Shown one piece after another: positions 1,518-23,796 of a stretch of 26,907 bases of DNA. Positions within the stretch are counted from its first letter, which is position 1, and each line of letters opens with the position of its first letter. The notes under the pieces were generated by a model. The model saw nothing but the letters and a program-made list of their open reading frames with translations. It did no database searches and was not told the origin of the DNA. Both the position numbers and the translations under genes were made by a program. This DNA comes from a virus: positions 1-26,907 of the IMG/VR virus record IMGVR_UViG_3300008110_000338; one strand, given 5' to 3'.

Positions 1518-1747
1518 CCTTTTTTCTTTTCATACTCATCTTTGGTCATCCACTTCTGCTCACCCCAACGCTTTAAGGATTTTTGTCCTTCTGTTTTCTC
1601 GCCAGAGTAACCACCACCTTTCTTCTTGTATTCCTGTGCTAACAGCTGCGCCTTCCTAGCACTCCATTGACCCGGCTTACCTCCTTTAGATCCGGCCATA
1701 ATCCGATCTTTAATGCGCTCACGCATTTCTGGTTTGGTATACGCCAT
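1514..1747 (-). CDS. DUF5872-type basic protein, N-terminal-half-like
   Basis: This protein has 77 residues and is very rich in Lys, Arg and Gly. The segment GSKGGKPGQWSARKAQLLAQ (residues 19-38), followed by EYKKKGGGYSG and a KSLKRWGEQKW segment, is what I recognise as the characteristic first part of DUF5872 proteins. In the versions I recall the chain then continues into a TERYLP segment, which here is encoded by the gene ending at 884. It starts in a TGATG junction with the upstream gene. Role unknown. High positive charge and small size suggest DNA or RNA contact or packaging in the virion. Confidence 0.72.
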   Translation of the reverse strand: MAYTKPEMRERIKDRIMAGSKGGKPGQWSARKAQLLAQEYKKKGGGYSGEKTEGQKSLKRWGEQKWMTKDEYEKKKG

Positions 1748-2028
1748 CAGAATTGATTTTGAATGGGTCTTTTATTAAGAATAACAGGAGGCACTGCATC
1801 ACTTGCAGAGCGATCTACCTCACGCATGTAAGCAGGATTGTTTAGTTGATAGCGTGGATCATTGCTTCCGTTATAACCAACAACATAGGAGCAAGGACTG
1901 TGCTGCTCTTTCATCTGGGGTTGAAAAGGATCAGCAAAACCAGCCGTGGTCATGCTGTAATCCTGGTACATGTTGCTGTAATTAACAGGATAAGCAGAGC
2001 TATAACCAGGAACGTTTGCGAATCTCAT
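1747..2028 (-). CDS. Small Tyr/Asn/Pro-rich protein, unknown
   Basis: This 93-residue protein is rich in Tyr, Asn, Pro and Ser and has no membrane segment. It starts in an ATGA overlap with the peptidase gene and ends in a TGATG junction with the next, so translation is probably coupled. Its first residues MRFANVPGY are almost the same as the start of the 403-residue protein encoded at 16224-17435 (MRFANIPNY). I do not recognise a family. A minor virion component is the simplest reading from position. Confidence 0.6.
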   Translation of the reverse strand: MRFANVPGYSSAYPVNYSNMYQDYSMTTAGFADPFQPQMKEQHSPCSYVVGYNGSNDPRYQLNNPAYMREVDRSASDAVPPVILNKRPIQNQF

Positions 2029-2678
2029 GCAAAGTAATTGGTAGTTGGCTGGCTCTGCATCATCTTAACCAGACTGTTAACAGGAAGTACAGAGCTTGAA
2101 GACTGGCTCATCTTGGCAATGTAATTTTTTAAATACTGTTCAGGTGTTTGTTCTTCTTCTTCTTTCTTGCCAGTCTGAATAACAATGTTAATGGATTGTG
2201 GAGAATCAACTCCAGGAGGCTGTTGCGTTGGCTGCACCTGTGGAGATTGTTGATTACCTAAAGATGCTTGTTGTCCACCCTTGGTATGAAGAAGTTCAAT
2301 CTCATAACCCTCGGGTGTTTGAATAGTTCCTAAACCTTTGCCAGGTTTAAAAGCACCTGCACCTTTCCAGTACAATGGTGTGCCGCCAGGGATGCCAAAA
2401 TCAATCCCTCGATGAAATGTTGAAGCTCCAGCAGTTGGCGCGGAACGTGGGCCAAAACCAGAAGTAATGGGAAAGGATGGTTTGAACCCATCTTGAGTTT
2501 GCTGATAAAGGGGAGTTTTTCCCTCCCCAATAACCAGGTTTTGCAAGCCACTACGCCATGTACTGGGATCAATATATTGCCCACCTTTTTTAACACGAAC
2601 ATCAAGGTGAGGTCCAGTTGTTGGAAAGATGTCCTCTCCAGGTTTTGCAATATAACCAGTATGGATAAGGCCTGCCAT
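2025..2678 (-). CDS. M23-type (LytM/lysostaphin-like) peptidase with rearranged motif order
   Basis: M23 enzymes cut peptidoglycan cross-bridges using zinc held by an HxxxD motif and a distal HxH. Here HRGID (H89, D93) sits in a typical SGFGPR...FHRGIDFGIPGGTP setting at residues 73-101, and a GYEIELLH segment ends at H131. The segment that normally closes the domain, TGPHLxFxV...YxDP, is instead near the N-terminus (TGPHLDVRV, H24 and D26, then YIDPSTW at 35-41). The domain therefore looks circularly permuted, and the distal motif reads HLD rather than HLH. A Gln/Pro-rich linker follows, then a tail (about 162-217) shared with the next enzyme upstream. Probably a virion-borne lysin. Activity is uncertain because of the altered motif. 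Confidence 0.8.
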   Translation of the reverse strand: MAGLIHTGYIAKPGEDIFPTTGPHLDVRVKKGGQYIDPSTWRSGLQNLVIGEGKTPLYQQTQDGFKPSFPITSGFGPRSAPTAGASTFHRGIDFGIPGGTPLYWKGAGAFKPGKGLGTIQTPEGYEIELLHTKGGQQASLGNQQSPQVQPTQQPPGVDSPQSINIVIQTGKKEEEEQTPEQYLKNYIAKMSQSSSSVLPVNSLVKMMQSQPTTNYFA

Positions 2679-2680
2679 GA

Positions 2681-3406
2681 TTAGCCGAAGTAATTAACAG
2701 GCTCAGTTGTTGTCATTGCTTTTGCCATTTCCATTGGAGATGGAATGGAAGAACGCCTGTTCTTTTGATATTCTAATAGGAAACTTAAAGGATCACTTGC
2801 TGCACTGCTGGAAGTCTTAGCTCCATCGGTAACAATGATGTTAATGTTTGGCATCCCTGCTTGTTGCAGTTGTTGCTGAGGTTGTTGAGGCTGCTGGCTA
2901 GCAATACTTCTTGTCCCGGTTTTTTGTTTCTGCTGTTCATAGTATTGATACAAGTCACCGAGTTTTTTAGAAGGCTGCCCGTAGTAGCTTCCTCCACTAG
3001 ATGTTGGCAATGCAGCCCACTCTGGAGCAAGCTTGTTAATAACAGTTCCAAATTTTTCTCCTTTTAGGAAGGGTTCTAATGCGCCTCGCTTTTTATCAAT
3101 CAAATAAAGAGCAGCAAGGTCTTGGGATTTCGGATCAAACTGAGTTAAACCAAGTGCTTTTGCTGTGCCCTGCCATGTAGGCTGTAGAAATTGATAGGCT
3201 CCAGCAGCAGTACTAGTGTAACCACCACTTGAAATAGCTTTGTTGGGATGTTGCCATCCTTTGGTTGTGTCAAATTTGCTGCCACCAAACATAGTTTGAT
3301 AGCCAGCATCACCGGGAGTACCCTCTGCATACCGAATAGTATTAAGAAGAGAGCGTACTTCAGGACGTTGAAGCAATGCTTCGTAGCGCTGGCGCAGATC
3401 CGACAT
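2681..3406 (-). CDS. GH104-type (lambda R-like) lytic transglycosylase in the virion block
   Basis: It resembles the lambda endolysin family: a catalytic-Glu segment IRYAEGT (E28 from the chosen start), a GYQTMFGG segment, HP, then TAAGAYQFLQPTW, LGL..F.P.SQD and a RGAL turn, ending with PEWAALP and YYGQ. Family members cleave the glycan strand to an anhydro product. The ATG at 3406 lies four bases after the upstream stop; a longer frame to 3499 would overlap that gene by 89 bases, so I prefer 3406 (241 residues). A Gln-rich linker (about 157-183) leads to a C-terminal tail with NINIIVTDGAK and a final PVNYFG, paralogous to the tail of the M23-type protein. Likely a virion-associated lysin acting at entry. 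Confidence 0.87.
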   Translation of the reverse strand: MSDLRQRYEALLQRPEVRSLLNTIRYAEGTPGDAGYQTMFGGSKFDTTKGWQHPNKAISSGGYTSTAAGAYQFLQPTWQGTAKALGLTQFDPKSQDLAALYLIDKKRGALEPFLKGEKFGTVINKLAPEWAALPTSSGGSYYGQPSKKLGDLYQYYEQQKQKTGTRSIASQQPQQPQQQLQQAGMPNINIIVTDGAKTSSSAASDPLSFLLEYQKNRRSSIPSPMEMAKAMTTTEPVNYFG

Positions 3407-3410
3407 GGGT

Positions 3411-3890
3411 TTACCGGTGGTTGTACTCGAAGTAGAAGCGGGTACCGATTGCCACGTCTGCGGGGCCGGGTAAAGCTTGGATAAATTCGGCGCCTTCACG
3501 CTCGAAGCGATAACGGGCTTGCATAGGATTCCTATAGTTAGCCACGTATAAATGCAGAGCTAATCGATCAGTTTCATAAAGATAAATCTCTGTCCAGGTT
3601 TTAAGTGTTTCTTTGAAATCAGTCGTTGTGATAGTACGGTCAACATCACCAGCGATGTTTTCTAACCGGTTACGAGGAACTGAATTATTATTCACACTAC
3701 CTGTCATGTCAGTGCGCTTCTCCGCCTCATCGCACCGACCGACTTGTTCGACTAATTTCGTGTACCAGAAAGAATCCGGTACATTGTTCAAAGCTTCCTC
3801 AAGTCGTGAAAGATCACCAGCAGGAATTGATGTTGTGTTGTATCCCAGGTGCCAACGAATCTTTGACTTGAGGAAGTTATCAAGTTGCAT
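3411..3890 (-). CDS. Connector- or neck-like virion protein, unknown family
   Basis: This protein has 159 residues, with a mixed charged composition that looks globular. It begins MQLDNFLKSKIRWHLGYN and has LSRLEEALNNVPD, which suggests helices. It lies between the helix-hairpin-helix protein and the lysozyme, downstream of capsid genes, a place where many tailed phages encode head-tail adaptor or neck proteins. Its start overlaps the upstream stop by one base. I cannot name a family from sequence alone; the adaptor role is inferred only from order and size. Confidence 0.7.
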   Translation of the reverse strand: MQLDNFLKSKIRWHLGYNTTSIPAGDLSRLEEALNNVPDSFWYTKLVEQVGRCDEAEKRTDMTGSVNNNSVPRNRLENIAGDVDRTITTTDFKETLKTWTEIYLYETDRLALHLYVANYRNPMQARYRFEREGAEFIQALPGPADVAIGTRFYFEYNHR

Positions 3891-5226: not shown

Positions 5227-6369
5227 TCAAACGATGGTGAACGCAGTGGTCACAAAGTCCTTGTTCAGGTTAGCAAAACCGGCGTACAGCTGCCAAATTA
5301 AAATAATAAAGCGGCTGAAATCGTCGTTATTGTTGATAAGAACCTGAGCGTTAGGACCGCCAATGCCCACACCCACGGCCTGAGGACCGAAGAACAGTGC
5401 AGGAGGAGTGTCGTGAGAAACAGCACCAGCGCCGTCGCCAATGTCAACGGTGATGGTCTTGGAGGGGAAGTTGGTGGATTCGAAGAAACGCACACCTTCA
5501 AACACGAAGCCAGAAGGCATGGTGGGTTCGCCGCCCACAAACTGAGCTTGGCCGTACTGACCACCGCCATAGATAGCAGCGTTGGGGTTCATGCCGCTCA
5601 TCAGCGGGTTACCAGCAGCAAAGCCGGGGTAACGAGCCACTTCACGGAAGCCCTGATCAGCACGCAGATCCTTCATGAAGGAGGGATCAGCAATACAGCG
5701 GTAGTAGCCATCAGCAAAGACGGGGACGTTACGCTTGCGGAGGCTCTTCACCACTTCAAGCAGGTCGGTCTTCACGTTGAACTTATAACGCTCAGAGGCA
5801 TACTCAGTAGCAGTATAAGCAGTCAGCGTGGTGGCGCCGGTCTTCGCTTTGTTGTTAGGATAGTAGTAACCACCCTGGGTGTCAGAGGACTGACCACGGG
5901 ACTCGGACTTGAACAGTTCGTCGAGAAACACGCGGTCGCGCCAGCGGCGATAGTCATCCAGCAGGGTCAGCGAACCGATGGACTGGTGGAACATGTTGAG
6001 GTTCCCGGTGTCCAGCAGCAGACGCTGAGCGGTCATCAGAGTCTCACGAGCAATCTTGAAGGTGCTCGGAAGGTTGGCGTTGTTCGGGTCAGCAGGACCG
6101 GTGTACTCACGAAGAGACACCAGGACCTTATCCTTCACAATCGACCGGCTGTTAGCAGTACCAATGGTTTGATCCTGGGTACGCTCACGGTTGGTCTTCG
6201 TGCCGGGGTTGCCCCAGAAACGATAGCGGTCGAGCTGAACGGTTTGACCCGGCTGTTTGGTGAAGTCGTGGACAACTACAGGCTCGCAAGCCATTTCCAC
6301 GATATAAGCTGGGTGGGGACGGTACAGCTCCGCGCCCAACAGCTTGGGAAAGTCGTTATCAATAAACAT
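5227..6369 (-). CDS. Major capsid protein (putative)
   Basis: This protein has 380 residues and begins at the ATG at 6369. It has the length, mixed alpha/beta composition and position (after portal, scaffold-like and protease genes, before a highly translated second structural protein) of an HK97-fold major capsid protein. Features such as VQLDRYRFWGNPG, RERTQDQTIG, VLVSLREYTGP and FFGPQAVGVGIG resemble large-capsid families with an early beta hairpin and a late G-rich loop. I place it near the N4-gp56-like/DUF4043-like group with low certainty. Third codon positions are GC-rich compared with neighbours. It has its own upstream region of 133 bases with a strong promoter-like element, and its stop is next to the strong ribosome site of the following gene. 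Confidence 0.85.
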   Translation of the reverse strand: MFIDNDFPKLLGAELYRPHPAYIVEMACEPVVVHDFTKQPGQTVQLDRYRFWGNPGTKTNRERTQDQTIGTANSRSIVKDKVLVSLREYTGPADPNNANLPSTFKIARETLMTAQRLLLDTGNLNMFHQSIGSLTLLDDYRRWRDRVFLDELFKSESRGQSSDTQGGYYYPNNKAKTGATTLTAYTATEYASERYKFNVKTDLLEVVKSLRKRNVPVFADGYYRCIADPSFMKDLRADQGFREVARYPGFAAGNPLMSGMNPNAAIYGGGQYGQAQFVGGEPTMPSGFVFEGVRFFESTNFPSKTITVDIGDGAGAVSHDTPPALFFGPQAVGVGIGGPNAQVLINNNDDFSRFIILIWQLYAGFANLNKDFVTTAFTIV

Positions 6370-6502: not shown

Positions 6503-7174
6503 TTAATTTTGCCTCATTTGCTGGACAAAAGAACGTAAAAACCTACCTGCACCAAGGCCACCAAGTGCTGCAGCTGCTGGAGCTATTACATAACCTGCAG
6601 CTTGGAATGCGCCAGGGGCAGCAGAAACAGGATAACCAGCTTGGTTAACAAGGTTAGTTCCACGGCGAGTGGCTTCAATTTCAGAGATGATGCGTCCGCT
6701 GTTATTCAGATAATTCATCCCCAAAGCAAGAGAAGCAGCACGACGAGCAGAGGGAACTGCAGCACTAACACCAATAGTTGCTAGTCCCATCACGTTAGGA
6801 TTAACTCCACCATAGGTATGACGTTGAATCCACTGAGGAATTCCACCGCCTGCTTCAATGGACTGGTGACCTAACTCATGGCCAAGTGTAAACTTGCTTG
6901 CTTTATCTACATTTAAAGAGATGGAGTTTTGTCCAATCCGAGAATAACTAACGCCAGATGGTTGGAAGTTTGCAGTAACTTCTGGATCTAATCCTGTTTG
7001 CTTTGTGTATTGTTCAACAATTTGATTAAGAGCTGGCTGCTCAAAAGCAGTACCAGTTTCTTGCATCCCACGCTGTTGATATTGTTTAACGGCACCACGT
7101 TGCAAAGCACGTGCACCAGCCATACCAGCTAGTGCAATACCACCTTGCAATGCAGTTTTAGCAGATTGGTTCAC
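6503..7174 (-). CDS. HExxH zinc metallopeptidase in the maturation-protease position
   Basis: This protein has 223 residues. TLGHELGHQ (97-104) gives the zinc motif H99-E100-x-x-H103, and ISEIEATRRG (163-172) could give the third, glutamate ligand (E165 or E167), as in gluzincins and YugP-like (Zn_peptidase_2) enzymes. Flanking Gly/Ala-rich hydrophobic stretches (about 9-24, 129-152 and 189-210) suggest membrane or coat contact. It is encoded between the portal/scaffold genes and the major capsid gene, where tailed phages usually place the prohead protease. It starts in an ATGA overlap with the 67-residue protein. Capsid maturation is one hypothesis; host-envelope degradation or a virion-internal role are others. 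Confidence 0.8.
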   Translation of the reverse strand: MNQSAKTALQGGIALAGMAGARALQRGAVKQYQQRGMQETGTAFEQPALNQIVEQYTKQTGLDPEVTANFQPSGVSYSRIGQNSISLNVDKASKFTLGHELGHQSIEAGGGIPQWIQRHTYGGVNPNVMGLATIGVSAAVPSARRAASLALGMNYLNNSGRIISEIEATRRGTNLVNQAGYPVSAAPGAFQAAGYVIAPAAAALGGLGAGRFLRSFVQQMRQN

Positions 7175-7996: not shown

Positions 7997-8971
7997 TCAT
8001 TCCATCACCAGGAGTTTCTGGCGGAACACACCGGGGTTGCGTTGTGCTTGCGACAGATAACGCCAGGCATTGGCAGGATCACGTTCAGCAACGTTGCCAA
8101 AATTATCCCAGAAGTTCTGCGAATCCATGTCGAGCTGAGGGCTCGGAGGAACTGGCATACTGGCCCGCTCCAGGGAAGGACTGTAGTATTCCTGTTCCGG
8201 ATAAGCTTGCTGTTCTGGATAACCATAGGCAGGCTGCTCATCCTGTACTGGATAAGGACCATTCTCACCGAAGAACTCACAGGTGTAATCAGCTAATACG
8301 TCAGGATCGGTAAGGATCTTTTCGTAAGCCTGGTGTTCCTGAGCCAGTTCTTCCAGCAGTTGAACAGCTTCTGTCAGTTGCTCATAGCGAGCAATCAGCG
8401 CATCTTCAACAGTGCAGGCATATTCATTGAGGACAGCAGGGGCATCAGCACCAAAGTGATCAATAACCTCAAGACTTTGAGGACTTACTCCGTTTGCCAG
8501 GAGTTGTTGCGTTGTTATTTCCTGCGATGTTTGGGAATAGTTGGGCGAGTAACCCTGGCTGGACGGATAGATCGGGGCTGCCGAATTGCTGCTGAATGTT
8601 CCGGTCTGTTGGGAACTGAAGCTGGCCGGGTCGATTCCTGGTGTCGGTCCGGACTGTTGACCCTGGAACGGGAATTGAACTGGTGAACTCAGGAGTGACA
8701 CCACCCGATTGAACGCTTCCTTGTACGGGTTCTCCGCTGAAGGTTGGGACGGCTGGTACGACTGGATAGGGGCGTAAGGTGCCGCCGAGATCTGCGCCTG
8801 CATCTGGGGCGCTGGTGCCTGGGCCGGCTGGTAAGGCGCCACCCACTGGCTGGTTGTTGCCACCGGTGCCTGCGCTGCCGTCTGTTGTGCCACCGGCGCC
8901 GCGTAGCTGCTCGGCGGGGTCGAATACTGTTGGGGTACCGATTGGATCGGCGCTGCGGTATCGGCCTGCAT
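7997..8971 (-). CDS. Putative scaffolding / capsid assembly protein, overlapping the portal gene
   Basis: This protein has 324 residues. The first 160 are Pro/Gln/Ala/Ser-rich and probably disordered, apart from a helix-like NPYKEAFNRVVSLLSS at about 81-96. Residues 186-230 are acidic and helical (EDALIARYEQLTEAVQLLEE), followed by an acidic Tyr/Gln-rich linker and a C-terminal helical segment (NAWRYLSQAQRNPGVFRQKL). Acidic helical proteins between portal and capsid genes are typical scaffolds. Residues 1-167 lie in another frame of the portal gene. The start at 8971 has a good AGAGGT site five bases upstream, inside the portal reading frame. Scaffold function is inferred from position and composition. 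Confidence 0.8.
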   Translation of the reverse strand: MQADTAAPIQSVPQQYSTPPSSYAAPVAQQTAAQAPVATTSQWVAPYQPAQAPAPQMQAQISAAPYAPIQSYQPSQPSAENPYKEAFNRVVSLLSSPVQFPFQGQQSGPTPGIDPASFSSQQTGTFSSNSAAPIYPSSQGYSPNYSQTSQEITTQQLLANGVSPQSLEVIDHFGADAPAVLNEYACTVEDALIARYEQLTEAVQLLEELAQEHQAYEKILTDPDVLADYTCEFFGENGPYPVQDEQPAYGYPEQQAYPEQEYYSPSLERASMPVPPSPQLDMDSQNFWDNFGNVAERDPANAWRYLSQAQRNPGVFRQKLLVME

Positions 8972-10703
8972 AAGTTACCTCTTTCTGGAGACTTTCGAGT
9001 GTTCTGTAAAGGAATGGCGTCAAATCAAGACGCGGATCAGCTGCCAGGGGGAGATCTGGGCGCTGGGGGTGAGGTGTACGCATCTCTTGATTAATGAGAT
9101 CAAGGAACGACGCATACGCTCGTTGCACTTGGCCAACCATCCGGAAGGGATAACCAGAGAGCATTTCTGCAACCTCGTCATCCGTCTTGGAGGGGAACAA
9201 GTACTTAAGTGCCTCAATACTATCAACACCCAATTCTTGTAGGTTACGAGTAAAGATAGATTGATTAACTTTGTCCTGAGGTGTGTCTTCATAGACAGGA
9301 CCCATCCAGCGCCAAAGCACTGTACGGTCTCCATCTGGAGCAAGACCAATAACACCATCAGGAATCTCTTTGGTTTCAAAAGCTTTATCTAAAGCTTTGT
9401 CCAAACCTTTCTCATACTTTTCTTTTGCTTTGCGGTGCTTTTCTAATGCTTCTTCATCGGCATTCTCAGGCAATATCGGATATGTTAACCCAGATGCAAC
9501 TGCTAATGATTTACGGAAGAGTTGTTCTTCCTGGTAGATCATTAGTTCAAAGCACCGGCAAATACCATAGGTATAAAGCTGCAGGCACTTCTTCTTGGCT
9601 GTGGCACTAACACGGCCATAGGCAGATTTGATTTCAGTCGCTGTTACGTTGGTAATTGAAAGGTCATCAATACCGCCAAGCGCCAGGCGAATCTCGGAAC
9701 GCAGCTGATCCACATAGCGGGACTGGTCTGTGCTGATGGCGTTCGGTGTAATAAAACCAACGCGATCTGTCGGCTCCAGGTTGGCAATCACCCGTGGCAC
9801 ACGCAGCCCGCCGCCAGGTAATCCGATATAGCCAGCTTGTTGGCGCTCTGTCGGATCTTGCTTAAAGGTGGAACTGGATAGTGAAAACTCAGATTGGAAA
9901 CCAGATTGGCTTGCAATGCTAGGACGTTGAACTGCACCATCACGTGCTGTTTCAACAATGTCGTGTTTTGGACGAGAGGAGAGCAGGGTGGGGTTGCCAA
10001 AGAACGATAGGTTTGCCCTGATGTTCTTTACCATCTCATCGTGGGCAATGATCTGATTAGCTAACCATTCAAATTCACCGCTACCATCAGTACCAAAAGC
10101 ATCAGGGTTGTTGAGAACTTCTACGCAAGGAATAAAACCTAGTGTGTTCTCAAGTACCTTGTTATCATTGAAATTAAGTGTTGCCTCCAGGGAATCAAAC
10201 GACAGTTCTTGTTCACTGTGGAGTTCGTGAATTTCACTTGGCGTGATACGGAGCCGCACATAACGCTTATCAGTAACAAGGCCAACACCGCCAAAACCAC
10301 GACTGGATTTAACCTTGTAAGCATAAATAATGATGACTTCTTCTAGATCACCATCTGGAGAGTAGTAAGTGCGATAAGCATCTTTATCAAACCAATACAA
10401 ACGATATGTTTTCTTTGTTGGCCTGATATAAAACAGCCCTTTACCGTAAGATAAGAACCGATCCCAAATAGAGTCTAATCGTGCATCTAAACGATTGAAC
10501 TTGATAACTTGTTGGATAAAATCAAAACGTTGCGTTCCAAAGTTATCTTGATTGGGATAAAACTCGACGCCCTGTCGAATCCCAAACATCTTCATTTGGG
10601 AAAGGTGGGCATTGATGAGCATCGTATCTGCTGTGCCCGTGGACTCACGGTTCACAACAGCTTTGAGCATTCCTTCTAAAACGGATTGGCTCTGGGTGCT
10701 CAT
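8469..10703 (-). CDS. Portal protein with a long disordered C-terminal extension
   Basis: This protein has 744 residues. The portal forms the dodecameric ring through which DNA enters and leaves the head. Residues 1-570 look folded: an N-terminal helical clip (FIQQVIKFNRLDARLDSIWDRF), a beta-rich YWFDKDAYRTYYSPDGDLEEV region, a stem-like DQSRYVDQLRSEIRLALGG segment, and a Lys/Glu-rich helix at about 430-455. The last 160 residues are Pro/Gly/Thr/Ser-rich and probably disordered; they are read from the same DNA as the N-terminal half of the scaffold-like gene. It lies two genes after the terminase large subunit. The assignment rests on order, length and overall pattern. No Shine-Dalgarno site is visible before ATG 10703. 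Confidence 0.87.
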   Translation of the reverse strand: MSTQSQSVLEGMLKAVVNRESTGTADTMLINAHLSQMKMFGIRQGVEFYPNQDNFGTQRFDFIQQVIKFNRLDARLDSIWDRFLSYGKGLFYIRPTKKTYRLYWFDKDAYRTYYSPDGDLEEVIIIYAYKVKSSRGFGGVGLVTDKRYVRLRITPSEIHELHSEQELSFDSLEATLNFNDNKVLENTLGFIPCVEVLNNPDAFGTDGSGEFEWLANQIIAHDEMVKNIRANLSFFGNPTLLSSRPKHDIVETARDGAVQRPSIASQSGFQSEFSLSSSTFKQDPTERQQAGYIGLPGGGLRVPRVIANLEPTDRVGFITPNAISTDQSRYVDQLRSEIRLALGGIDDLSITNVTATEIKSAYGRVSATAKKKCLQLYTYGICRCFELMIYQEEQLFRKSLAVASGLTYPILPENADEEALEKHRKAKEKYEKGLDKALDKAFETKEIPDGVIGLAPDGDRTVLWRWMGPVYEDTPQDKVNQSIFTRNLQELGVDSIEALKYLFPSKTDDEVAEMLSGYPFRMVGQVQRAYASFLDLINQEMRTPHPQRPDLPLAADPRLDLTPFLYRTLESLQKEVTYAGRYRSADPIGTPTVFDPAEQLRGAGGTTDGSAGTGGNNQPVGGALPAGPGTSAPDAGADLGGTLRPYPVVPAVPTFSGEPVQGSVQSGGVTPEFTSSIPVPGSTVRTDTRNRPGQLQFPTDRNIQQQFGSPDLSVQPGLLAQLFPNIAGNNNATTPGKRSKSSKS
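8977..8982 (-). promoter_or_regulatory. Internal Shine-Dalgarno site for the scaffold-like gene
   Basis: AGAGGT on the minus strand, five bases before ATG 8971, within the portal coding sequence. It decides the start of the overlapping gene: without it the overlap could be dismissed as an accidental open frame. Confidence 0.7.
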
Positions 10704-14866: not shown

Positions 14867-15673
14867 TCAGAAGTAACGATACTGGGTAGCACCAGCTTGA
14901 CCAACGTTGGTTAAGAAACCTTCTGCCATCCGTTGAGCACCAAGTTGACCCTGTTGACGCATTGCAGCATCAGTAGCTAGAGCAGTCGCAAGTTGTGCAG
15001 CTTTGGCGCCACGGATAAGATCAGCTTCTTTGGAGCGTTGTTGATAAGCTTCCTGGTACGGAGCATAACGCAGAGCATTCTGCAGACTCTGCATGTACTG
15101 CTGTTGCTCAAACCGAAGCTGACTTTGGATTGAACCAAGAGGATCAGCATAACCAGCAGCACCTGGAGGACCAAACTGACCCAAATTAGAAGGGGTCATC
15201 TGACCTGCTCCATAACCAGGAACATCAGGCAGCTGGGGCATACCGGCACCCGTTGCTTGCTGAGTTAAACCAACAGCTTTAGAAACGGGTTGAACAGCTT
15301 TACCTGCAAGGCTTGCACCGCCAGCTGCAAGAGCCGGAACAGCTAAACCGCCTCCAATCAGGGCGGCACCGCCAAGACCTTTAGCAAGGGCGGCTTTACC
15401 TAAGGCTTGCTGGCCAATTGGGTTAATAGTGCTTGCACCGCCACGGGCAAATAACTGAGATGCTTTATAAGCTTCTGGAGCAATCTTGGCACCAAGAGCG
15501 GTACCAGCAAGACGCGTACCAATAGCACTAGCAGCACCAGGGAGAACAGCACCTAAACCAGTGCCCAGAAGACCACCACCAACAGTTTGGCCAATATCAC
15601 CACCACTACGTTTGTAAGCTTCTGTTGCTCCTAATCCTCCGCCAACTAAAGCGCTAATCAGTAACGGGTTCAT
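14867..15673 (-). CDS. Gly/Ala-rich hydrophobic virion-like protein
   Basis: This protein has 268 residues. The first 130 consist of glycine-zipper-like hydrophobic stretches (about 4-16, 30-62 and 88-122) with repeated GGGLGxGLG and AAGGASLAG patterns, typical of proteins that insert in membranes without classical charged flanks. The C-terminal half is Gln/Ala-rich and helical, and ends TQYRYF. A clear AAGAGGA ribosome site lies eight bases before ATG 15673. Such proteins could form a DNA-ejection channel in the host envelope; that is inference. No enzymatic motif seen. Confidence 0.7.
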   Translation of the reverse strand: MNPLLISALVGGGLGATEAYKRSGGDIGQTVGGGLLGTGLGAVLPGAASAIGTRLAGTALGAKIAPEAYKASQLFARGGASTINPIGQQALGKAALAKGLGGAALIGGGLAVPALAAGGASLAGKAVQPVSKAVGLTQQATGAGMPQLPDVPGYGAGQMTPSNLGQFGPPGAAGYADPLGSIQSQLRFEQQQYMQSLQNALRYAPYQEAYQQRSKEADLIRGAKAAQLATALATDAAMRQQGQLGAQRMAEGFLTNVGQAGATQYRYF

Positions 15674-15714: not shown

Positions 15715-16224
15715 TTAACCAAAGAAACCGCCTAAGGTTCCGCCAAGAGCTGGAGCAGCAGCAGCGGCAGCAGCGCCTACACCAGGAATCATTGAAACAC
15801 CGATTCCAGCCAAAGTTCCTAATGCACCGCCAATACCTCGGCTACCACCAGACTGTGTGGTTTTCTGTGTTGGCGTGGGAAGGAACATAGTATAGCCACG
15901 GCCTTGTACTGCAGTGGGCGCATTAGAACCGTAACCACGATAACTACGAGAACCAGGATTAGTACTGTTTTGTGATTTGTAAGTAAGAGCTTTGTTCAGT
16001 GCTTCAAAACCTTTTTGTACCCAGTCGGTGCCAGAGGAACGTGCGGCTAAACCACCAGCACCGCTTAAGCCAGGTAAATCAAACGAACCAGTCCAATCAA
16101 CACTTGGAGTTTGGCTCCAATCTGTGTTACTAGAAACAGAGCCCCAATTGTAGTTGCCAAGGCCAGGTGCTTCGCCCTTGAAGATATTATCTGTTTGAAC
16201 GTAGTTGTCGTAAAGCCCTGCCAT
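15715..16224 (-). CDS. Virion-like protein with a glycine-zipper C-terminus
   Basis: ATG 16224 forms a TAATG junction with the upstream stop and gives 169 residues; a longer frame to 16257 would run into the upstream gene without a better signal. Residues 1-60 are Asn/Trp/Ser-rich; residues 85-125 are Ser/Gly/Tyr-rich; the last 40 residues are a Gly/Ala hydrophobic block (GGALGTLAGIGVSMIPGVG, then seven consecutive Ala) ending GGFFG. Such a C-terminal block could insert into a membrane. Family not recognised. Confidence 0.66.
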   Translation of the reverse strand: MAGLYDNYVQTDNIFKGEAPGLGNYNWGSVSSNTDWSQTPSVDWTGSFDLPGLSGAGGLAARSSGTDWVQKGFEALNKALTYKSQNSTNPGSRSYRGYGSNAPTAVQGRGYTMFLPTPTQKTTQSGGSRGIGGALGTLAGIGVSMIPGVGAAAAAAAPALGGTLGGFFG

Positions 16225-17435
16225 TACTGATTCATGTAAGGAGTGAGTTCTTGCCAACTAGAAGCCGGAGGTTGTCCTAAAGCTTCACTAGCAGATTGGA
16301 AAGAACCATATTTATGCTTTAGGTATTCTACTGGTTGTTCTTTCTTTAAACGATTCTCAGCTTGTTTGTTGAAGATAGCTTGTGATCCTTTCTTTGCTAA
16401 ATAACCGGCGCCAAGTCCAGCAGCCACAATCCCGGCAGCTGTTGCAAGCTTAGGTGCACCAATCGGTTCTTTTTGTGCTACATCTTCTAATAAACCAGTC
16501 AGATATTGCACTCCACCTTTTGTTCCCTTATTGATAGGGATACCTGCTTTTTCCACAGCAATTTCACGCCCTAACTGTTTAACAGCTTGTTCCATTTCAG
16601 GAGTCCTGGCCATCACAGTTTTTGCGTAGCGCATTTTTTCTGGTAATGCTTTTTGCAGTGCACCTGTAGTTCCAATAGCAGCTGCAGTACCAATAGCTGT
16701 GGATGCCGTAACAGGGAAACCAAAATATTGAATCTCTGGTTCATTTAATCCTTTTGCAGTACCACGAATAATACCAAGTGGTCCAACAAAAGATTGCGAT
16801 TGTGGATCAACCTTTCCAAACCCATCTGGCTTCATGTGTTTGTAGCGCAGATATTGTTGATAGGTAGGATAAGCAACTTCAGGACGTTCTTCTTTAAACG
16901 TTGAGTAAGGAAGTGGATCACCACGGCGACCTGTGAAGTAACGCAGAACAGATTCCGCCATGGGGTTAGCCGATGTACGACCAGTCGGATCTTCTTCCTT
17001 GGAAACAGGTAGGATGCTCTTGAAACCAGCAGGACGAGCACCTGTCAGCGGGTTACCAACAGCACCTCCTAAAGCGGCAATAGCAAACGGAGTACTGCGG
17101 CCAAGCAGATCAGTGGTGACAGGATCAAGACCCATCTTCTGGCCAGCGGCACGCCCAACATTACGACCAACTGCTAAGGTGTGATTTAAGAACCAGTAGG
17201 TGCCACGTGATGCATCTGTTAAAACATCAAGGGTGCCAGTAGCAGCAGCCAATGGAAGATTACCTTGCTTTGCATATTTAACTGCTTCTTTGACACCACC
17301 ATAAACAGCACGTGGTCCGGTAGCACCACGGCCAAGGTTTAAACCTTGTTCTACATAGTTACTAAATTCACTACCAAACTTACTAGCAGCAGCAATGCTA
17401 TTGGAGAGATAGTTTGGAATATTTGCAAAGCGCAT
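16224..17435 (-). CDS. Large internal-virion-like protein with several hydrophobic segments
   Basis: This protein has 403 residues and begins MRFANIPNY, like the small protein at 1747-2028. Hydrophobic Gly/Ala segments lie at about 112-130, 240-262 and 330-350, separated by basic, folded-looking regions (for example STFKEERPEVAYPTYQQYLR at about 178-197). Starts and stops overlap both neighbours by one base (TGATG, TAATG), so expression is coupled. No catalytic motif was found. It belongs to the chain of small-residue-rich late proteins, which I interpret as internal or ejection proteins. Confidence 0.68.
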   Translation of the reverse strand: MRFANIPNYLSNSIAAASKFGSEFSNYVEQGLNLGRGATGPRAVYGGVKEAVKYAKQGNLPLAAATGTLDVLTDASRGTYWFLNHTLAVGRNVGRAAGQKMGLDPVTTDLLGRSTPFAIAALGGAVGNPLTGARPAGFKSILPVSKEEDPTGRTSANPMAESVLRYFTGRRGDPLPYSTFKEERPEVAYPTYQQYLRYKHMKPDGFGKVDPQSQSFVGPLGIIRGTAKGLNEPEIQYFGFPVTASTAIGTAAAIGTTGALQKALPEKMRYAKTVMARTPEMEQAVKQLGREIAVEKAGIPINKGTKGGVQYLTGLLEDVAQKEPIGAPKLATAAGIVAAGLGAGYLAKKGSQAIFNKQAENRLKKEQPVEYLKHKYGSFQSASEALGQPPASSWQELTPYMNQ

Positions 17436-18121
17436 CAGAAGTACCGAGTTGTTGGAGTACTTAACATTTGGTTTGCAATCTCAAAGGGATTAGAAGAACC
17501 GCCTTGAGAAACATGATAGATATAGCTAGGGAACTTGTAGTTCCTGGCATAGGTTAATTCTAAACGACGTTGGTGCTCCAGGGCATTGGGATCAGTGCCG
17601 ACAACTGCCTCTGGCATTGCAGCTAACTCTGCATTTGTAACATCTGCTTGGATGCCAGTTTGTGTATTACGGCCACCGCCATAACCTTCAGGAAGAACTG
17701 AACGTGTCACCGCTCGGGTTAAAGGTTCAGTAACAGCCATACCACCAATAACACCAATGCCTAACTTACCAAGACCTGCTGCTGCACCTGCCAAACTCTG
17801 AGCAGCTGGAGCGGGTATTCCCATTCCTGCCATTCGTTGTGCTGCACCAGCTTCCATTTGAGAAAGGCCTGGTGCTACTTGTTTAACACCCGCCATAATC
17901 CCGCGTTCGATGGGGCCGCTTAATACACCAAGGGTTGCAGCACGCGCCAGACTTTCAGGAAGCGGAGGAGCTTCTTTGCCAAGAGCAAGCGGTAATCCCT
18001 GTTCAAGTGCCAAACTTAGTGCACCTGTACGAGCTGCTTCTTTAGCAAACGCTTTACCGCCAGCTGGAGCAATGATGGGAAGCAGGCGTTGTCCTGCTAA
18101 ACGTAAGGCAGTTCCAATCAT
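17435..18121 (-). CDS. Gly/Ala-rich virion-like protein with a TTRYF tail
   Basis: This protein has 228 residues. Residues 1-155 are Ala/Gly/Leu-rich with pseudo-repeats (LAxEQGLPLALGKEAPPLPE, AAQSLAGAAAGLGKLGIGVI). The last 50 residues are polar and end STPTTRYF after a SNPFEIANQML segment, which resembles the ends of the two lysin-like proteins (QPTTNYFA and TEPVNYFG). It overlaps the upstream gene by four bases (ATGA) and the downstream gene by one. No enzymatic motif seen. An internal virion protein is likely. Confidence 0.67.
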   Translation of the reverse strand: MIGTALRLAGQRLLPIIAPAGGKAFAKEAARTGALSLALEQGLPLALGKEAPPLPESLARAATLGVLSGPIERGIMAGVKQVAPGLSQMEAGAAQRMAGMGIPAPAAQSLAGAAAGLGKLGIGVIGGMAVTEPLTRAVTRSVLPEGYGGGRNTQTGIQADVTNAELAAMPEAVVGTDPNALEHQRRLELTYARNYKFPSYIYHVSQGGSSNPFEIANQMLSTPTTRYF

Positions 18122-23295: not shown

Positions 23296-23796
23296 ATGTC
23301 TTTTGAATTGTTTTCAAAACGCTGGAAACGAGATGACAATTGCCCATCTTGTTTGTATTCCTTAACCAGAAATCGTTGTGTTGGTTGTTCTAAAAGACGG
23401 CCTCATCATTTAACTAATTATTGGGTAATTGGTTATGACAACAGGAAGAAACTTATGGTTCACAATGTTTTGTGGGTTTTAGATACGAAACAACAAGTTC
23501 CGGATGGTTTACAAGTAGATCATATTGATAGAAATGGAGAAAACAATTTACAGAGTAATCTTAGGCTCTTAACTTCTGCTGAGCAGAAACTTAACACACT
23601 TGCCAGGAAGAATTCAACTTCACCATATAAAGGAGTTTCTTGGTCCAGGCATAAGCTTAAGTGGCGATCTCAGGTTCAACTTAACAAAGTTAAGATTTTT
23701 CTCGGATACTTTGATACTGAAATTGAAGCTGCAATTGCTTATGACTTTTATATGAAGACGCATGGACCTGAATGTAGCTATTTAAATTTTCAGTAA
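23296..23796 (+). CDS. HNH endonuclease with zinc ribbon and AP2 domain
   Basis: This protein has 166 residues. C16, C19, C28 and C31 form a CPSC...CVGC zinc ribbon. The HNH core runs about 44-93: VHNVLWVLD with H56, VPDGLQVDHIDRNGENN with D75-H76 and N84, then NLRLLT. An AP2 DNA-binding domain follows (about 109-166: YKGVSWSRHKLKWRSQV, FLGYFDTEIEAAIAYD). This layout is common in free-standing homing endonucleases of phages. The gene is clearly more AT-rich than its neighbours, especially at third positions, which suggests recent arrival. Start ATG 23296 in a weak context. Role: DNA cleavage for self-spread, possibly with marker exclusion. Confidence 0.93.
   Translation: MSFELFSKRWKRDDNCPSCLYSLTRNRCVGCSKRRPHHLTNYWVIGYDNRKKLMVHNVLWVLDTKQQVPDGLQVDHIDRNGENNLQSNLRLLTSAEQKLNTLARKNSTSPYKGVSWSRHKLKWRSQVQLNKVKIFLGYFDTEIEAAIAYDFYMKTHGPECSYLNFQ

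Follow-up and report, generated by a model that had tools for sequence, protein, structure and literature searches.

A shared C-terminal tail beneath exchangeable catalytic heads, a candidate docking tag for the lysins of S-EIV1-like cyanophages

The stretch of DNA analysed here, hereafter the window, is a virus record of 26,907 nucleotides (26.9 kb) that represents an S-EIV1-like phage. The terL product, the large terminase, shares 64% identity with the counterpart of Synechococcus phage S-EIV1, its portal matches phrog_20475 (E 2e-216), and orthologues of several of its late genes are found together with an M23 gene in the related record L002. On the homology of the terminase, the portal and the neighbouring late genes, the window is a member of the S-EIV1 cyanophage lineage, and a genome group that includes S-EIV1 represented 3.3% of the cyanophage content in one marine survey (PMC5332604). 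Two lysin genes lie downstream of the capsid gene in the late block, on the - strand, and the proximity of the major capsid gene (5227-6369) places them within the structural gene block. The features considered are as follows:

1747..2028, - strand, small conserved late gene (the anchor gene), downstream of lysin 1
2025..2678, - strand, lysin 1, with a circularly permuted M23-type peptidase head, a Q/P-rich linker and the shared tail
2028..2198, - strand, shared C-terminal tail of lysin 1, from profile alignment with the GH104 tail (probability 98.4%)
2274..2678, - strand, exchangeable head segment of lysin 1 (M23 here), from the head-swap breakpoints in near-identical relatives
2681..3406, - strand, lysin 2, with a GH104 (lambda-lysozyme-like) head, a Q-rich linker and the shared tail
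2684..2851, - strand, shared C-terminal tail of lysin 2, from profile alignment with the M23 tail
5227..6369, - strand, major capsid protein, from a match to phrog_1357 major head protein (E 9.6e-17)
14867..15673, - strand, possible fourth carrier, ending ATQYRYF, homology to the tail not supported
17435..18121, - strand, third tag carrier, a late protein of 228 aa whose last ~22 residues match the lysin tails
17438..17506, - strand, short form of the tag, i.e., the last 23 residues, ending NPFEIANQMLSTPTTRYF

Related loci were located among viral contigs through the anchor gene (1747-2028), whose direct upstream neighbour usually encodes a lysin in related lineages. In the sub-clade of L040, L051 and L067, the anchor gene is present with neither a lysin nor the capsid gene upstream of it, and the late gene order is rearranged. 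Several other observations were made in passing. An out-of-frame overlap of ~500 bases links the portal gene with the following late gene (7997-8971 and 8469-10703), and is also present in relatives, e.g., L040, L033 and L264. Between the portal and capsid genes, the late protein encoded at 6503-7174 exhibits a zinc-protease-like HELGH motif and a weak match to the phrog_87 metallo-protease (E 0.16), and an ORF at 23296-23796 on the + strand resembles, by eye only, an HNH-type homing endonuclease (CPSC ... VDHIDRNGENN). The contig L276, assigned to a Euryarchaeota MAG (PAJN01000013) but probably a misbinned virus contig, also carries late genes and an S-EIV1-like terminase (53% identical).

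The HxxxD and HxH zinc motifs by which M23 (LytM-like) peptidases are recognised do not follow their standard order in the head of lysin 1: the order is permuted, with GPHLDV first, HxxxD second and LLH third, and the HxH motif reads HLD. The C-terminal half of PF01551 matches residues 10-38 (E 0.015), the HxxxD half (residues 68-115) matches M23 peptidases in the PDB and PHROGs, and H24, H89, D93 and H131 are invariant across 20 relatives. A permuted M23 head is otherwise seen in tape measure proteins of Acinetobacter phages, with the same motif order, as in that of phage Ab105-2phi. The AlphaFold2 model of lysin 1 (pLDDT 59) was too poor for judging the fold and gave no match in Foldseek; judging from the sequence, the permuted head would work like M23. 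As for lysin 2, its residues 52-180 match the lambda lysozyme (3d3d/1am7) with an E-value of 1.7e-13 in phmmer and the protein matches phrog_90 (E 3e-33), and this homology over the catalytic domain assigns it to GH104, i.e., the lambda-type lysozymes. The ATG at 3406 is supported as start codon since the 31 residues upstream overlap the gene at 3411-3890 and vary in length among relatives. In other phages, some GH104 homologues are annotated as tail-fibre/lysozyme or internal proteins and others as endolysins.

Beyond their linkers, the two lysins end alike. The tail of lysin 1 reads SINIVIQTGKK...PEQYLKNYIAKM...VNSLVKMMQSQPTTNYFA, and can be divided into SINIVIQTG, a first helix (PEQYLKNYIAKM), a second helix (VNSLVKMMQ) and the terminal TTNYFA. 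The tail of lysin 2 reads NINIIVTDGAK...PLSFLLEYQKN...PSPMEMAKAMTTTEPVNYFG, with NINIIVTDGAK, DPLSFLLEYQKN and IPSPMEMAKAMTTTEPVNYFG as successive landmarks. In two details, the preliminary description needs correction, as the M23 tail starts with SINI rather than NINI and the helix motif, given as P-x-[YS]-[LF]-L-x-x-Y, has the form P-x-x-[YF]-L-x-x-Y. Comparison of the M23 and GH104 proteins alone returns a BLASTP E-value of 0.03 with a match limited to the tail, and tail profiles from ~24 relatives of each align over 57 columns with a probability of 98.4%. Because hhalign E-values are uncalibrated in so small a search, weight was placed on control families, the C-terminal 60-mers of late families being compared with both lysin tails: GH104 and M23 score 68-69, the 17435-18121 protein scores 35-42, and the 20 other late-gene families score at most 16, with a probability of at most 4.4%. 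The common tail that the preliminary description had claimed for the M23-type and GH104-type proteins, and had proposed to check by aligning the last 60 residues across late proteins, is borne out by this separation; on these alignments, both proteins end in a homologous module of ~57 residues. In a position-blind search of 21 whole records, the tail profile matched 13, all 13 with tails at both the M23 position and GH104. A third match by the same profile, of 18-25 residues, falls at the 17435-type protein in 8 of the 13 records (E 3.6e-5 to 5e-3 per genome), and the 21 records gave no further match at E <= 1.

The helices of the lysin 1 tail are placed by AlphaFold2 at residues 179-191 and 200-208 with low pLDDT, and a model of an M15-like relative (see below) likewise shows short low-confidence tail helices, the predicted tail comprising two short helices overall. 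Such helices would be compatible with a peptide that becomes ordered upon binding. When compared with Pfam, PHROGs and NCBIfam, the tail matched no known wall-binding family.

The third late protein, also held in the preliminary description to share the end of the tail, does so over its last ~22 residues, which match the lysin tails with a probability of 92-97%; in comparisons of C-terminal 28-mers, the probability reaches 97% over the last 21-23 residues. The 17435-18121 protein has no recognised enzyme domain, with no match in Pfam or PHROG. As in capsid targeting, a short terminal sequence is thereby common to three otherwise unrelated carriers per genome, in 8 records. As regards the 14867-15673 protein, its QYRYF ending was correctly read and is kept in close relatives, but the protein gave no profile alignment with the tail (probability <1%) and was rejected as a tail homologue. 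A resemblance at the other end of two late products may be mentioned: those of 1747-2028 and 16224-17435 begin with MRFANVPGY and MRFANIPNY, respectively, a likeness that may mirror the shared tail at the N-terminus.

The relatives provide natural exchanges of the catalytic part. Seven near-identical pairs of viruses, with flanks at about 91-99.7% DNA identity, differ in the catalytic head and retain the tail, the head being either permuted M23 vs. M15-like or SLT_3 vs. GH104. In L091, L092, L098 and L107, the relative of lysin 1 matches it only from the linker onward and has another domain as its head, in which H..H..D and HVH motifs are seen. In the pair L092/L093, the flanks are 99.6% and 98.1% identical in DNA and the tails 88%, for unrelated heads; the corresponding values are 95.4/97.1% and 98% in L107/L111, 98.5/94.7% and 93% in L098/L099, and 92.3/90.7% and 87% in L245/S-EIV1, where the isolate S-EIV1 carries M23 and its metagenomic sister the M15-like head. 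In marine sub-lineages, the pairs L169/L171, L178/L181 and L193/L172 exchange SLT_3 and GH104 heads (assigned from Pfam and PHROGs, some pair members via similarity to scanned neighbours) between flanks of 95-98% identity and with tails 75-100% identical. M15-like and M23 heads also contrast in an eighth pair (L152/L200), which is more diverged, its tails being 55% identical. At the M23/M15-like swap, DNA identity (94-99.7%) ends around codon 2-3 and returns at the head/linker border. The second lysin of the S-EIV1 clade also appears, from sequence comparison, to swap its head, L244 matching the second lysin of S-EIV1 (PF18013 head) in the tail only.

In the alternative head of lysin 1, H33, H39, D48, H99 and H101 are invariant, and a profile of 31 such proteins matches the Zn DD-carboxypeptidase 1lbu (E 0.0078) along the FNEALGPGDKGHDTHVHLA stretch. 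Membership of M15 being defined by SxHxxGxAxD and HxH motifs and homology to Zn DD-carboxypeptidase, the head was named M15-like on the basis of its motifs and of this profile match; its AlphaFold2 model has a confident head, for which Foldseek matches 1lbu with a probability of 0.80 but a weak E-value (0.17). Assembly chimeras are an unlikely cause of the swaps, because the M15-like version of the L092/L093 pair is present in two metagenome records (L091 and L092) and six contigs carry the M15-like head joined to the S-EIV1-type tail.

The M15-like head is well conserved, yet it carries different tails according to virus lineage. The tail of S-EIV1 (..ALNPMSFLDDYK..DILSGMFG) is not found by the window tail profile and is not recognisably homologous. 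At the extreme C-terminus, 39 of the 40 distinct sequences encoded upstream of the anchor gene end in [YFL][FLMY]x(0-3), a pattern satisfied by 9% of random internal 12-mers. This pattern is loose: most 7997-8971 orthologues (..LLVME) satisfy it too, as do some members of other, unrelated families, and for that reason it was not taken alone as evidence. Where both lysins are present (11 lineages), their tail cores share 7.1 of 20 residues within a genome vs. 6.1 in shuffled pairs (P 0.005), and the BLOSUM62 score compared with permuted pairs gives P 0.025; this similarity could partly reflect shared ancestry. In L019, NYLG and EYLKM close the two lysins, RYM the 17435-type protein and RYL the 14867-type protein; in close relatives the corresponding residue is F, otherwise nearly constant, so that four proteins changed a terminal Phe to Leu or Met, all within one lineage. 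In L264, neighbouring proteins with different heads end PNYLV (M15-like) and PNYLT (a head resembling a SleB-type hydrolase, by eye only); its lysins end PNYL, whereas its 17435 and 14867 types end PQYG and YNYS. More generally, these two types show their own terminal pattern in distant clades (PQY/QYQYQ, PQYG/YNYS). A strict terminal-residue code for all carriers was consequently rejected, as it fits the window clade and L019 and fails in distant clades.

As to the tag proposed in the preliminary description, its separability from the catalytic heads finds strong support in the natural swaps with the tail kept, the one head with lineage-specific tails, the third carrier, in which no enzyme domain is recognised, and the aromatic/hydrophobic C-terminal signature. 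The tail is, on balance, probably a C-terminal docking tag recruiting exchangeable lysins, most likely into the virion. With the shared tail, its third carrier, the repeated exchange of heads and the lineage specificity established, we infer a virion location, a common receptor or binding partner and an action at entry. Each S-EIV1-like phage would make one or two virion-type peptidoglycan hydrolases, in which the catalytic head would hang on a flexible Q/P-rich linker and the ~57-residue tail would consist of (i) a short strand, (ii) a helix, (iii) a second helix, and (iv) a C-terminal [YFL]-[FLM]-x. On a virion component, this tail would occupy a receptor site specific to the lineage. The particle would in this way carry the enzymes and, attached via its last ~22 residues, the 17435-type protein, and the enzymes would then cut the wall at genome entry. 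With a receptor recognising the tail alone, any suitable head could be exchanged, namely M23, M15-like, GH104, SLT_3 or PF18013, by recombination between the start codon and the linker. Loading into the virion by the tag is plausible given that the genes have structural genes around them and the major capsid gene close by, that these kinds of head are known from tape-measure and internal virion proteins, and that separate untagged GH24 lysozymes exist: S-EIV1 and several large contigs of relatives encode such enzymes and, among those with C-termini read, the shared tail is absent. Against this reading stand the terminal signatures of the 17435 and 14867 types, which fail to follow those of the lysins in distant clades, the sub-clade lacking a lysin next to the anchor gene, and the want of recognisable homology between the tails of the window and of S-EIV1.

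Four other explanations of the tail were weighed. The presence of three carriers with related tails in one genome could indicate a self-association module, by which the 17435 protein and both lysins would bind one another through their tails, as a multi-enzyme complex with no separate receptor, and correlated change within a genome is also expected of mutually binding partners. This explanation is rather unlikely, since several related lineages show one lysin at the locus and the tail persists there, the 17435-type protein has just the last ~22 residues, and a C-terminal aromatic signature would be more typical of pocket binding. Still less probable is that the tail binds the cell wall, like the corresponding domain of classical modular endolysins, the proteins being ordinary lysis enzymes: a head with a C-terminal module is indeed the usual endolysin layout and shuffling of heads and binding domains is known, but the terminal part is also on a late protein without recognised enzyme domain, the separate GH24 lysozymes of relatives lack the tail, no known wall-binding family is matched, the tails track virus lineage and not head type, and the prediction for the tail is a pair of short, poorly ordered helices and not a folded domain. 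Local duplication of neighbouring lysin genes, or gene conversion between them, is very improbable as the source of the tails, which would then be leftovers with no shared function. The genes are adjacent and tail cores within one genome are 24-37/60 (40-62%) identical in DNA, as leftovers might be, but such identity is too low for recent conversion, the tail outlasted at least seven replacements of the head, and its terminal part recurs on a gene ~14 kb away. Finally, a degradation or quality-control signal, by which host tail-specific proteases would remove unassembled lysin, is scarcely credible, for short hydrophobic C-terminal ends can be protease signals but here the similarity spans ~57 residues with two predicted helices, tracks virus lineage, and is found neither in other late proteins nor in the GH24 lysozymes.

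The docking-tag reading has counterparts in known systems; of those in the literature consulted, the internal proteins of phage T4 and the tailspike depolymerases come nearest. While the capsid targeting sequence (CTS) of T4 is N-terminal and cleaved, the tag here is C-terminal, ~57 residues long and with no known processing, and its payloads are wall hydrolases and one protein of unknown function. The likeness lies in diverse payload proteins bearing one common targeting sequence, the CTS being the sole conserved part of diverse internal proteins, which it brings into the head (PMC3012670). In tailspike or receptor-binding depolymerases, a conserved N-terminal anchor is combined with a separate catalytic domain (PMC12692247), i.e., a constant virion anchor with a distinct catalytic domain; the module here is instead C-terminal, occurs in several proteins per genome and has a cargo acting on peptidoglycan. 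Modular endolysins and virion-associated lysins, e.g., HydH5 (PMC3150257), resemble the present proteins in joining peptidoglycan-cutting heads to further modules, but here the second module matches none of the wall-binding families, and its end recurs on a late protein in which no enzyme domain is recognised. A further counterpart is S-EIV1 itself, whose M23 protein (AHV82231) and PF18013 lysozyme (AHV82234) belong to the same lineage and late gene block as those of the window; its M23 head is 46% identical to the window M23 head, and its own clade-specific tail survives the M23/M15-like swap.

A more general rule, to which we would give an even chance, is that of plug and socket, where a lineage-specific C-terminal tag fits one socket on the particle, common to several proteins, and recombination replaces the enzyme as tag and socket coevolve. 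In a widespread group of aquatic cyanobacterial viruses, the enzyme in front of a common tag has been repeatedly exchanged in evolution, and such natural head swaps reveal which parts of a lysin are exchangeable and which are retained. The presence of the same tag on different enzymes and a non-enzyme protein, together with the swapping of the enzyme, suggests that the tag provides all of them with one site of attachment, probably in the virus particle. The shared tag also offers a handle on how S-EIV1-like particles are built, as its binding partner may be the entry or injection apparatus.
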